Source: Gemmatimonadetes bacterium SCN 70-22 | Lineage (GTDB): Bacteria > Gemmatimonadota > Gemmatimonadetes > Gemmatimonadales > Gemmatimonadaceae | Reading direction: 5' to 3' | Assembly (NCBI GenBank): GCA_001724275.1 | Contig: MEDZ01000003.1 | Location: forward strand, 157,230 to 221,229 | DNA: 64,000 nucleotides | Shown here: positions 17,806 through 21,518 of the stretch, piece after piece | Layout of the letters: the number at the start of each line of letters is the position of its first letter | How positions within the stretch are numbered: position 1 is the first letter of the stretch | Notes under the pieces: generated by a model | Database searches by the model: none | Told to the model about the DNA's origin: nothing | The model's input: only the letters and a program-made list of their open reading frames with translations | Made by a program: the position numbers and the translations under genes

Positions 17806-18387
17806 ATGTCGACCGTCGTTCTGCTCCGCTCACTTCGCCTTGCCGCGTCCCTAGTCCTGGCTGCACCCGTGGTCGCCCATGGCCAAGGCGGATTACTGTC
17901 CAATACCGCGACAGTCGCCATCAACGCCACCAAGCAGGCTTCACTGAGCGTAGCCATCAACTCCGGTGGCGCGCAGACCATGACGACGCTGACGGACAAT
18001 ACCGTGAACAACTTCGCGACTCCCGTCAGCATCACGACCACGTGGGACATCAACCCCTCGGCCGCGGCGGTCGTCCTGGTCGGCTACTTCAGCAACCCGT
18101 CGCAGGCGCTGGCCAACGGGACCGACTACATCGCCTCGTCGCTCGTGAAGGGGAGGATCGGGACGGGCGGGGCGTTCAGCCCCTTCGCCGGCGGCGTGGT
18201 GACCGGTGGTGCGAGCACGGCGGGCGTTGCCGGAGGGACGCTGACGCTCTTCTCGCAATCGATCAATGGCACGAACAAGTCGTCGAGTCGCACCGATGAC
18301 CTCTACCTGCAGATCGACCTCACGGGCCAGACCGTTTCCGTCGGAACCTACGCGGGGACACTGAACCTGCGCGCCATCACCCAGTAG
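17806..18387 (+). CDS. Secreted subunit-like protein A of chaperone/barrel cassette
   Basis: 193 residues with a signal peptide (about 1-26, ending VAHGQG). The mature part is rich in Thr/Ser/Val beta strands, with VSITTTWDIN, VVLVGYF, YIASSLVKGR, SRTDDLYLQIDL and a terminal strand VGTYAGTLNLRAI. The third gene of the cassette has the same order of motifs, so the two are paralogues. The ending, an amphipathic strand close to the C-terminus, resembles subunits of the chaperone-usher or spore-coat U type, though no cysteine pair is present. No named family can be assigned with certainty. Leu codon TTA occurs once early on, unusual here. Confidence 0.65.
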   Translation: MSTVVLLRSLRLAASLVLAAPVVAHGQGGLLSNTATVAINATKQASLSVAINSGGAQTMTTLTDNTVNNFATPVSITTTWDINPSAAAVVLVGYFSNPSQALANGTDYIASSLVKGRIGTGGAFSPFAGGVVTGGASTAGVAGGTLTLFSQSINGTNKSSSRTDDLYLQIDLTGQTVSVGTYAGTLNLRAITQ

Positions 18388-18420
18388 GGCGCCCGCAGAC
18401 CGCAGGCACGGAGGATCGAG

Positions 18421-19134
18421 ATGCGCTGTCGAGTGATCGCCCGGGTGATCGTCGTGATGGCGACCCTTGCCGCCCCGTTCGTCGCGCCGGCCGCGCAGAC
18501 CATTCGCCCGGCGGTCGTGGAGTATCCTGTGCAGGGGCGCGGGAAGTTCGAACTCGTGAACGAATCGCTCTTTCCGCTCACGGTCGTGCTCGAACCGCGC
18601 GGATTTCGCGTCGACGAGAACGGCACCCTGGGCGACGTCCCGTTCGACTCGTCGAACGTCGATGTCAAGCTCTCGGCGATGTCGTTCCGCATTCCGCCGT
18701 TAGGTACCTATACCGTCTACTACGAGGCCCGGGCGCGCCGACTCCCGGCCTGGTTCATGGTCCTGTCGTCGATGACGGGGGCGCGGACTCACACGGGAAT
18801 CAACGTTCGCGTGGAGTTGCCGCACGTGGTGTACCTGCTGCAGCGCGAACCGCTCCAGAAGGAGGAGGTCGCCGTGCGCGCCTTCGACTTCGACAGCGTG
18901 GGGCATCGGGCGGTCCTCGAGCTGGAGAACACCGGCGACGCGCTCGGACGAGTGGTCGCCTCGGAGGTGAGCGCCACCGGCAAGCATGGGCAGCCCTTCG
19001 GTGGTTTCCCCCTCTTCCCCCAGAGTCGTCGTCGCGTGGAGGTGCCGTGGGATGGCGTCGAGGCGCCGGACCGGGTGCTGCTGCGGTTCGCGAACTTCTC
19101 GGTCGAGGAGCGCCGGGGCACCGCGCGACCCTAG
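18421..19134 (+). CDS. PapD-like periplasmic chaperone
   Basis: 237 residues, signal peptide about 1-24 (ending APAAQ). Residues 25-125 follow the PapD N-terminal Ig fold: IRPAVVEYPVQGRGKFEL, NESLFPLTVVLEP, then SFRIPPLGTYTVYYEAR where chaperones have the conserved strand before the subunit-binding basic residue, and VRVELPHVVYLL at the domain boundary. Residues 130-230 give a second beta domain (HRAVLELENTGDALGRVV). This is the layout of pilus chaperones that donate a strand to subunits in the periplasm. It sits between two subunit-like genes and a barrel gene, supporting that role. It contains a CGTTAGG motif (18698). Confidence 0.65.
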   Translation: MRCRVIARVIVVMATLAAPFVAPAAQTIRPAVVEYPVQGRGKFELVNESLFPLTVVLEPRGFRVDENGTLGDVPFDSSNVDVKLSAMSFRIPPLGTYTVYYEARARRLPAWFMVLSSMTGARTHTGINVRVELPHVVYLLQREPLQKEEVAVRAFDFDSVGHRAVLELENTGDALGRVVASEVSATGKHGQPFGGFPLFPQSRRRVEVPWDGVEAPDRVLLRFANFSVEERRGTARP

Positions 19135-19171
19135 GCGTGTGCGCTCACACTGGCGCGTGGGACCGCTGGGG

Positions 19172-19822
19172 ATGAACGCGTGCGGCCGCGCAGGGCCCGG
19201 ACGGGCGGAACGAGCAGCGTGGGGCGCGCTTGGCGCGCTGTTCCCGACCCTGCTCCTTGCGGTGTCCCCGGCGCGCGCCCAGGTGGAGAGCATCGCGACC
19301 GTGACGCCCGTGCTCTCGCCCGTGGGACTGTGGCGCACGGCGGCGGCCAGTGCGGGGTCCGTCGCCGGAGCCAATACGCTGACACTACGCATCAACAGCG
19401 GGGCGATCCAGGACATTCCGTTCCTGACCGACAACCGCCTCAATTCCTTCCCATCCCCCGTGAGTGTCACGACGGAGTGGACGCTTGGCGCGGTCGCCTC
19501 GACCGTGGACCTGGTCGGATACTTCCCGAGCGCTTCGGCGGCGCTGAGCGGTCCGGCGTACGACATCGCGTCGAGCCGGGTGAGCGGGCGCATGATCACC
19601 GGCACCGCGATCACCTTCACGCCCTTCGACGGACGTGCGGTGGGGGGAGTCGGGACCCCCGGCGCCACGTTGCACCTGTTCCGGCAGCCGATCCTCGCCC
19701 AAGTGAACGGCATGGGAACGCGGACGGACGACCTCGAATTGCAGCTGGACCTGCGGGGGGTGCCGAAGCTTCCGTCCGGCACGTATCGCGGGACGCTCAC
19801 GCTCCGGGCCGTGGCCTACTGA
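19172..19822 (+). CDS. Secreted subunit-like protein B of chaperone/barrel cassette
   Basis: 216 residues from ATG 19172; GTG 19157 in frame is possible. Signal peptide about 1-38 (hydrophobic GALGALFPTLLLAVSPARAQ). The mature protein repeats the motif order of protein A: VSVTTEWTLG, VDLVGYFPS, YDIASSRVSGR, FTPFDGRAVGG, RTDDLELQLDL and SGTYRGTLTLRAV ending in tyrosine. The shared RTDDL and GTY-GTL-LRA ends suggest a common structural unit such as a pilin or fibre subunit. The next gene starts one base after the stop, so this is a tight operon. Confidence 0.62.
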   Translation: MNACGRAGPGRAERAAWGALGALFPTLLLAVSPARAQVESIATVTPVLSPVGLWRTAAASAGSVAGANTLTLRINSGAIQDIPFLTDNRLNSFPSPVSVTTEWTLGAVASTVDLVGYFPSASAALSGPAYDIASSRVSGRMITGTAITFTPFDGRAVGGVGTPGATLHLFRQPILAQVNGMGTRTDDLELQLDLRGVPKLPSGTYRGTLTLRAVAY

Positions 19823-19823
19823 G

Positions 19824-21518
19824 ATGTCCCTCTCGCGCAACGCCGCCGAGCACCGGGACCGGGACGGCATCGGCATGCTCGGCCGAGGGGTACTCGCCGC
19901 GCTCGCCGTCCTTGCGGGACACTTCGCGGGGCCAGCCGTGGCGCACGCCCAGGTGTTCCAGGTGCAGGGTGGTGGCTCGTCGCTCTTCGAAGGATACGGC
20001 GGTGTCGTGAACATCTGGGGCAACGGGTACGACGCATCGATCGGCGTGGGTTACCTCGACGGGTTGCGGCTGGGGTGGTCGGCGCGGCGCCTCCTCGGCG
20101 GGCGTGATACGCTTCGCCTCGGCAACGACGCCCTCCCCTTCAGGCTTCCCACGGACGTCTTCGGCAGCGGGACCGCGATCCTGGCACAGGGTGCCTCGCT
20201 CCAGCGGCGTCGCGGACGCACGACACTGCTGGCCTTCGGGGGCGCGAGCGCGAATGCCGTCGCTGCGCCCTACTTTTCCTCCAACACGCCAGCCCGGGGG
20301 ATGGCATACCTGTGGCTGCAGCGCGACGTGAGTCGCAGGCTGACGGTGGGGGCGCACGCCGTCGCGACGGACCGGCAGACACTCCTCGCCAGTGCGCGCT
20401 GGACCCCGTCGTCGGGGATCACCACGAGCGTGACCGCTGGCATGGGGAGCAACGCGCCGTACGCGGCTGCAGCCCTCGACGCACGGACCACCCGGCTCGA
20501 CGTGCAAGCCGCGGCCGTGCACCTGGGGAATGGCTTCCGTCGCGCCTCGGCACCGATGCCGCTGCAGAGCGAGACGGAGCGCGAGAATGTCCACCTGACG
20601 TGGCGTGCGACTCCCACGCTCTCGCTCTCGGTGGCGCGCCAGCACTTCTGGCAGGATTCCGCATTTCGGGGCCTTCCGCAGCGCGCGACGCTGGATCAGG
20701 CGTCGGCCAGCGCCTCGCTGCTCGGGGCCACCGTGTCGTCGGGGTGGTTCCTGTCCGGCGCTGGCGGCGTTCGCAACCTGAGCTCGTCCCTCGGCGTCCG
20801 GCGCGATGTCGGGACGCGGCTCCAAGGAGAGTTCTACCTGCTGCGAGTGTGGGCGCCGCAGCCGTCGCGGGTCACGACGCCGGTCTTCCTCCTTCGTGAG
20901 AGTGTGACGCCGCGCCTGTCGCTGCTGCAGGTGATCAGCTACGAGCAGGGGCGGGCGTCCGTCAATTTCGGCGGAACGGTGTCGACGGGAATGAGCTCGC
21001 TCTCGCTCGACTACCAGGTGGCGCACTCGCCCTACCTCACGGCCAACCCGTTCGTCCAGAGCATCGGGCTGAACGCCCGGCTCCAGGTCGGCGGTTATGC
21101 ACTGACGTTAGGCAGTTTCGTGACGCCGGACGGAAGGGTCCACTACTCGGCGCAGGGGAGCACGTTCTTCTATCGCGGTGCGCCCGGCGGAGGCGCGCTC
21201 CCGGCGGTCTCGGTGCGCGCACACGTTGCCGGCTACATGATCAAGGGGCGCGTGGTGACCGAGGATGGCGCGCCGGTCGACGGCGCCGCGCTGGAGATCG
21301 GTGGCGAGCTGGTGTTCACGGACTCCCGCGGCAACTTCTTCCATCGGCGCCCGACGCGGCAACCGCTGGCGATACGTGTCGCGCTCGAAGAATTCCTGTC
21401 GCCGGGGAAATACGAGGTGACCAGTGCGCCGGGTGAAGGAACCCCCGAGCATGACGATCGCGCGAAGGCGCTCACGATCGTCGTCAGGCGAGTGGTGGAG
21501 GGGGTGCCCCGGCGATAG
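19824..21518 (+). CDS. Outer-membrane barrel with C-terminal beta domain, usher-like
   Basis: 564 residues. A signal peptide is best seen from Met18 (LGRGVLAALAVLAGHFAGPA, then VAHAQ), so ATG 19875 may be the real start. Residues about 45-460 alternate polar and hydrophobic residues as in a large transmembrane barrel (RLGWSARRL, ISYEQGRASVNFGG, GYALTLGSFVTPDG). Residues about 470-560 form a small Ig-like domain (YMIKGRVVTEDGAPVDGAAL, then VFTDSRGNFF) like the C-terminal domains of fimbrial ushers or carboxypeptidase-regulatory domains. Classical ushers are about 800 residues with a plug and N-domain, neither visible here. Position after subunits and chaperone supports a secretion pore. Confidence 0.6.
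   Translation: MSLSRNAAEHRDRDGIGMLGRGVLAALAVLAGHFAGPAVAHAQVFQVQGGGSSLFEGYGGVVNIWGNGYDASIGVGYLDGLRLGWSARRLLGGRDTLRLGNDALPFRLPTDVFGSGTAILAQGASLQRRRGRTTLLAFGGASANAVAAPYFSSNTPARGMAYLWLQRDVSRRLTVGAHAVATDRQTLLASARWTPSSGITTSVTAGMGSNAPYAAAALDARTTRLDVQAAAVHLGNGFRRASAPMPLQSETERENVHLTWRATPTLSLSVARQHFWQDSAFRGLPQRATLDQASASASLLGATVSSGWFLSGAGGVRNLSSSLGVRRDVGTRLQGEFYLLRVWAPQPSRVTTPVFLLRESVTPRLSLLQVISYEQGRASVNFGGTVSTGMSSLSLDYQVAHSPYLTANPFVQSIGLNARLQVGGYALTLGSFVTPDGRVHYSAQGSTFFYRGAPGGGALPAVSVRAHVAGYMIKGRVVTEDGAPVDGAALEIGGELVFTDSRGNFFHRRPTRQPLAIRVALEEFLSPGKYEVTSAPGEGTPEHDDRAKALTIVVRRVVEGVPRR

Follow-up and report, generated by a model that had tools for sequence, protein, structure and literature searches.

A predicted chaperone–usher-like operon with a reduced, plugless barrel in one order of Gemmatimonadota

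The window analyzed here, a stretch of 64,000 nucleotides from the Gemmatimonadetes bacterium SCN 70-22 (genome size, 4.7 Mb), contains four consecutive genes for two secreted subunits, a predicted periplasmic chaperone, and a predicted outer-membrane barrel protein (Table 1). The genes are separated by only 33, 37, and 1 nt, as expected from a preliminary description that placed four open reading frames in one tight operon, and all four products carry signal peptides as judged by eye. That description also regarded the subunits as paralogs sharing the motifs VGYF, RTDDL, and GTY-GTL-LRA; the motifs are present in both proteins, which are 48% identical over 150 residues (E 1.8e-35). Ordinary genes flank the operon; those upstream encode a ThiF/rhodanese protein and an alpha/beta hydrolase, and those downstream a YggX-like protein of iron trafficking and a GH3 enzyme. 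The four genes can be considered real because homologs occur in the same order across many genomes, at 33–77% identity for the chaperone and 33–79% for the barrel protein. None of the four proteins scores above a Pfam or NCBIfam cut-off, and when PDB, Pfam, and NCBIfam were searched directly with sequences and profiles of the subunit, chaperone, and barrel families, only the C-terminal domain of the barrel protein was matched.

Table 1. Genes and features of the operon (positions are those of the window).
Feature	Position	Strand	Remarks
Subunit A, secreted single-domain beta protein, 193 aa	17806–18387	+	Signal peptide approximately residues 1–26
N-terminal extension of subunit A, mature residues 1–16, proposed donor strand	17884–17931	+	Low pLDDT; motif V-x-[IL]-x-A
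PapD-like periplasmic chaperone, two domains, 237 aa	18421–19134	+	Predicted fold and profile links
G1 strand of the chaperone, residues 126–139, proposed donor strand	18796–18837	+	Hydrophobic residues at 127/129/131/133
Subunit B, paralog of subunit A with a longer N-terminus, C-terminal end ...LRAVAY	19172–19822	+	Start at 19172 probable; stop at 19820–19822
Outer-membrane barrel protein, 564 aa, usher-like but reduced	19824–21518	+	
Barrel domain, ~26 predicted strands, no plug-sized insertion	19950–21173	+	Predicted fold and alignment
C-terminal beta domain, CarboxypepD_reg-like, the only one present, located where ushers have CTD1	21228–21494	+	

The operon is present in 17 genomes, all belonging to a single order of Gemmatimonadota. 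A profile of the chaperone gives strong matches (E < 1e-80) in 17 of the 288 genomes of this order, a patchy distribution covering ~6% of them, and a single-sequence search in a 298-genome sample of the phylum found no chaperone outside the order. The barrel profile yields 13 full-length matches among 395 genomes of the phylum, all within the 17 chaperone-containing genomes; its remaining matches are to the common C-terminal domain only. In the other four chaperone-containing genomes, the barrel gene adjoins in three, and the contig ends first in one. Each locus begins with one to three subunits followed by the chaperone, sometimes one or two further subunits, and then the barrel, which lies 3ʹ of the chaperone wherever the contig is long enough. 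The arrangement of one to four subunits, a chaperone, and a barrel, which had been put forward as something to check in related genomes, is thus kept across all 17 genomes wherever the contig is complete. No chaperone relative was found among plasmid records. The scan of genome contigs used one query sequence and so could show close relatives only, and collections outside the phylum were likewise searched with single sequences only.

The chaperone was modeled with AlphaFold2 as part of a read-through chain of subunit A, linker, and chaperone (TAG read as Gln; 47 sequences). The chaperone part of this model reaches a pLDDT of ~90, while no relative placement of subunit and chaperone is claimed since the pTM of the chain is 0.52. 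Archaic or alternative chaperones, namely CsuC, EcpB, and CfaA, take the first seven Foldseek ranks for the chaperone model, with E values from 5e-8 to 4e-7. Structural alignment with CfaA gives Z 13.1 over 193–195 residues, and matches to CfaA, SafB, and Caf1M (Z ~13) span nearly the whole two-domain protein. Also among the closer fold matches are structures of enterococcal WxL-interacting proteins (9i25 and 9i1y). A direct search of the chaperone against family models gave no match, and its profile could not be linked to FimC and EcpB by themselves; an intermediate family, the chaperones of a second Gemmatimonadota system, was needed. The profile of this second family matches that of the present chaperone end to end (E 1.3e-9, 206 columns), and 13 of its 18 members match the Pfam model PapD_N (best, 8e-9). 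By predicted fold and linked profiles, the protein is a two-domain, PapD-like periplasmic chaperone, and the earlier assignment to this class holds on both counts.

The predicted G1 strand of the chaperone has large hydrophobic residues at positions 127, 129, 131, and 133 in 100% of 17 sequences, and the residues that separate them are mostly polar. This alternation is the proposed donor motif expected of such a chaperone, although it is also a general property of strands. Other chaperones anchor the subunit carboxylate through Arg/Lys in the classical systems or through an Arg in strand F1 in the archaic ones (PMC4654587). Neither anchor is evident at the aligned columns, nor is the invariant proline of the chaperone superfamily at its aligned position, the alignment being weak. 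Residues invariant in this chaperone family are Arg90, Arg122, Arg130, His135, and Arg204.

In the predicted structure of subunit A, mature residues 1–16 are disordered, and the last strand (residues 161–167) ends at the C-terminus. None of the three outcomes named beforehand as refuting the proposal, one of them a full Ig fold that needs no donor strand, was observed. Conserved motifs are found at both ends of the subunits, V-x-[IL]-x-A in the N-terminal extension and G-T-Y-x-G-T-L-x-L-x-A at the C-terminus, and to judge from sequence, this layout resembles that of pilins lacking strand G. The fold search for subunit A was carried out within the joined chain, where the chaperone filled the list of matches. 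No subunit scores above the cut-off of the SCPU or DUF4402 profiles, one member reaching E 0.007 to SCPU, and subunit profiles show no link to the subunits of the second Gemmatimonadota system. All subunits are single-domain across the loci, none of which showed a two-domain tip adhesin. In one family, the subunit nearest the barrel (subunit B in the window, and subunits just 5ʹ of the barrel in relatives) has a longer N-terminus and a Tyr in place of Gln at the end; it is perhaps a base or anchor subunit.

The AlphaFold2 model of the barrel protein (16 sequences; mean pLDDT 81, pTM 0.66) contains ~26 strands in mature residues 2–408, followed by one beta domain at residues 427–515. The preliminary description had reported a 564-residue barrel with a C-terminal Ig-like domain; the length and the presence of a C-terminal domain stand, whereas the domain is instead a CarboxypepD_reg-like beta domain, matched by 11 of 12 relatives and, below cut-off, by the protein in the window (E 6e-4). 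Three members of the barrel family weakly touch CooC_C. All of the first ten Foldseek matches of the barrel model in the PDB are FimD or PapC (E 2e-10 to 1e-7); the usher pore has 24 strands, against the ~26 predicted here. VIA-align gives Z 17.6 over 319 residues with the PapC pore and up to 15.8 with porins, which is not far below the ushers. The alignment begins at usher residue 138–146, past the N-domain of the usher, and extends as far as the end of CTD1.

Three of the five usher domains are missing from this protein. There is no N-domain, the mature protein beginning at strand 1. There is likewise no plug, since no gap between strands exceeds 14 residues, and none of 16 relatives has an insertion. 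In both model and alignment, a single C-terminal domain takes the place of two. A reduced barrel lacking plug and N-domain, as had been proposed, is therefore what the model contains, and its best fold matches are ushers and not a porin. At the sequence level, the barrel does not match PF00577 (Usher) above cut-off, and its profiles give only C-terminal-domain or chance scores against ushers of E. coli and Gemmatimonadota. Because the three missing domains are defining ones, we do not assign the barrel to the usher family; the claim is that it may work like an usher.

Known chaperone–usher systems offer several points of comparison. As in the CsuC, EcpB, and CfaA systems, which are closest in chaperone fold, a two-domain PapD-like chaperone is combined with single-domain subunits and an usher-like barrel, and the alternative E. 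coli usher EcpC also has a C-terminal domain that matches CarboxypepD_reg. Unlike in those systems, the barrel is devoid of an N-domain, a plug, and a second C-terminal domain, there is no sequence match at the family level, and neither known carboxylate anchor is evident in the weak alignment. Relative to FimD and PapC, the model of the barrel protein can be superposed on the translocation pore and, with a looser fit, on CTD1; however, the protein has 522 mature residues compared with ~830 and lies below PF00577 detection.

Taken with the conserved gene order and the co-occurrence of chaperone and barrel, these computed features (the operon and its conservation, the two predicted folds, and the absent domains) probably reflect a divergent chaperone–usher-like pathway in which a naturally reduced, plugless usher is predicted to export single-domain subunits of a fiber or coat. 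The chaperone would catch secreted subunits in the periplasm and complement their unfinished beta sandwich with its own G1 strand. Chaperone–subunit complexes would then dock at the plugless barrel, which is of usher-like size, through its single C-terminal domain, a site proposed because the N-domain is absent. Donor-strand exchange, in which each subunit receives the N-terminal extension of the one that follows, would join the subunits into a chain that would leave the cell through the barrel as a thin fiber or a coat. According to the FimD paradigm, recruitment of chaperone–subunit complexes falls to the N-domain, and a very wide pore is sealed by the plug (PMC12122975). Whether the operon encodes a working machine of this kind, in which the barrel, its one C-terminal domain, and the chaperone carry out recruitment, gating, and handover, is an even call.

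Several observations count against an usher-like role and leave room for a different one, in which the barrel, a large porin or a structural protein of the outer membrane, would do no more than share the operon, while the chaperone-folded subunits would reach the surface otherwise or stay in the periplasm. Beyond weak matches of the C-terminal domain, no sequence-profile link joins the barrel to ushers, and the porin Z score is close to theirs. Moreover, in two relatives, an OmpA peptidoglycan-binding domain, which is unusual for an usher and keeps a structural porin in play, follows the compact barrel: it is fused in L022 (6832–8946, − strand) and lies in another frame, possibly through a frameshift, in L020 (11642–11905). 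However, it is ushers that fit the barrel fold best, the barrel accompanies the chaperone on its 3ʹ side wherever the contig is long enough, and the host genome yielded no PF00577 usher. A porin or structural protein is accordingly unlikely.

A wide plugless pore would also need some other means of closure. While a separate, unlinked protein might supply the N-domain or plug to the reduced usher, given how central both are to known ushers (PMC12122975), no candidate for it was seen in the operon, the flanks in relatives having been traced for a set of named genes, and such an arrangement is rather improbable. The apparent lack of a carboxylate anchor and of the invariant proline at the weakly aligned chaperone positions also weighs against the usher-like pathway. 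The subunits might also be released singly or as short oligomers that form a coat, with no polymerization by donor-strand exchange. Subunits that are all single-domain, with no two-domain tip adhesin, would suit such a product; the conserved V-x-[IL]-x-A extension fits a donor strand, and a coat made in this way is very unlikely.

In keeping with the earlier suggestion that the system is possibly undescribed, no family-level match was obtained, and the literature search found no paper on such a Gemmatimonadota system or on a natural short usher. With a predicted export pore that lacks three of the five parts used by known pilus pores, the operon may show the minimum that such an assembly machine needs. 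A natural usher without N-domain and plug, if confirmed, would make it testable which parts fiber secretion requires and by what means a pore that has no plug is kept closed. Chaperone–usher-type export would also be extended in a phylum where such systems are nearly invisible to the standard usher model, PF00577 exceeding its cut-off in 1 of 298 genomes.

The second Gemmatimonadota system (L080, 2715–7456; L115–L129) occurs in the same bacterial order and is more widespread, with its chaperone matched in 69 of 287 genomes. Like the present operon, it combines a subunit, a PapD_N-like chaperone, and a large outer-membrane protein in a single operon, and the chaperones of the two systems are homologous. 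It differs in its outer-membrane protein of ~930 aa, an Ig-barrel-Ig protein with N-terminal Ig-like domains and SdrD_B-type C-terminal domains that no Usher model recognizes, and in its single-domain subunits, which are unrelated to those described here. More standard ushers occur in other Gemmatimonadota (L091, L092, L093, and L094), mostly below the PF00577 cut-off. Compactness is not the norm of the phylum, since ushers of 785–852 residues with traces of PF00577 (L091–L093) are found in it; that of L092 adjoins a DUF4402-like subunit.
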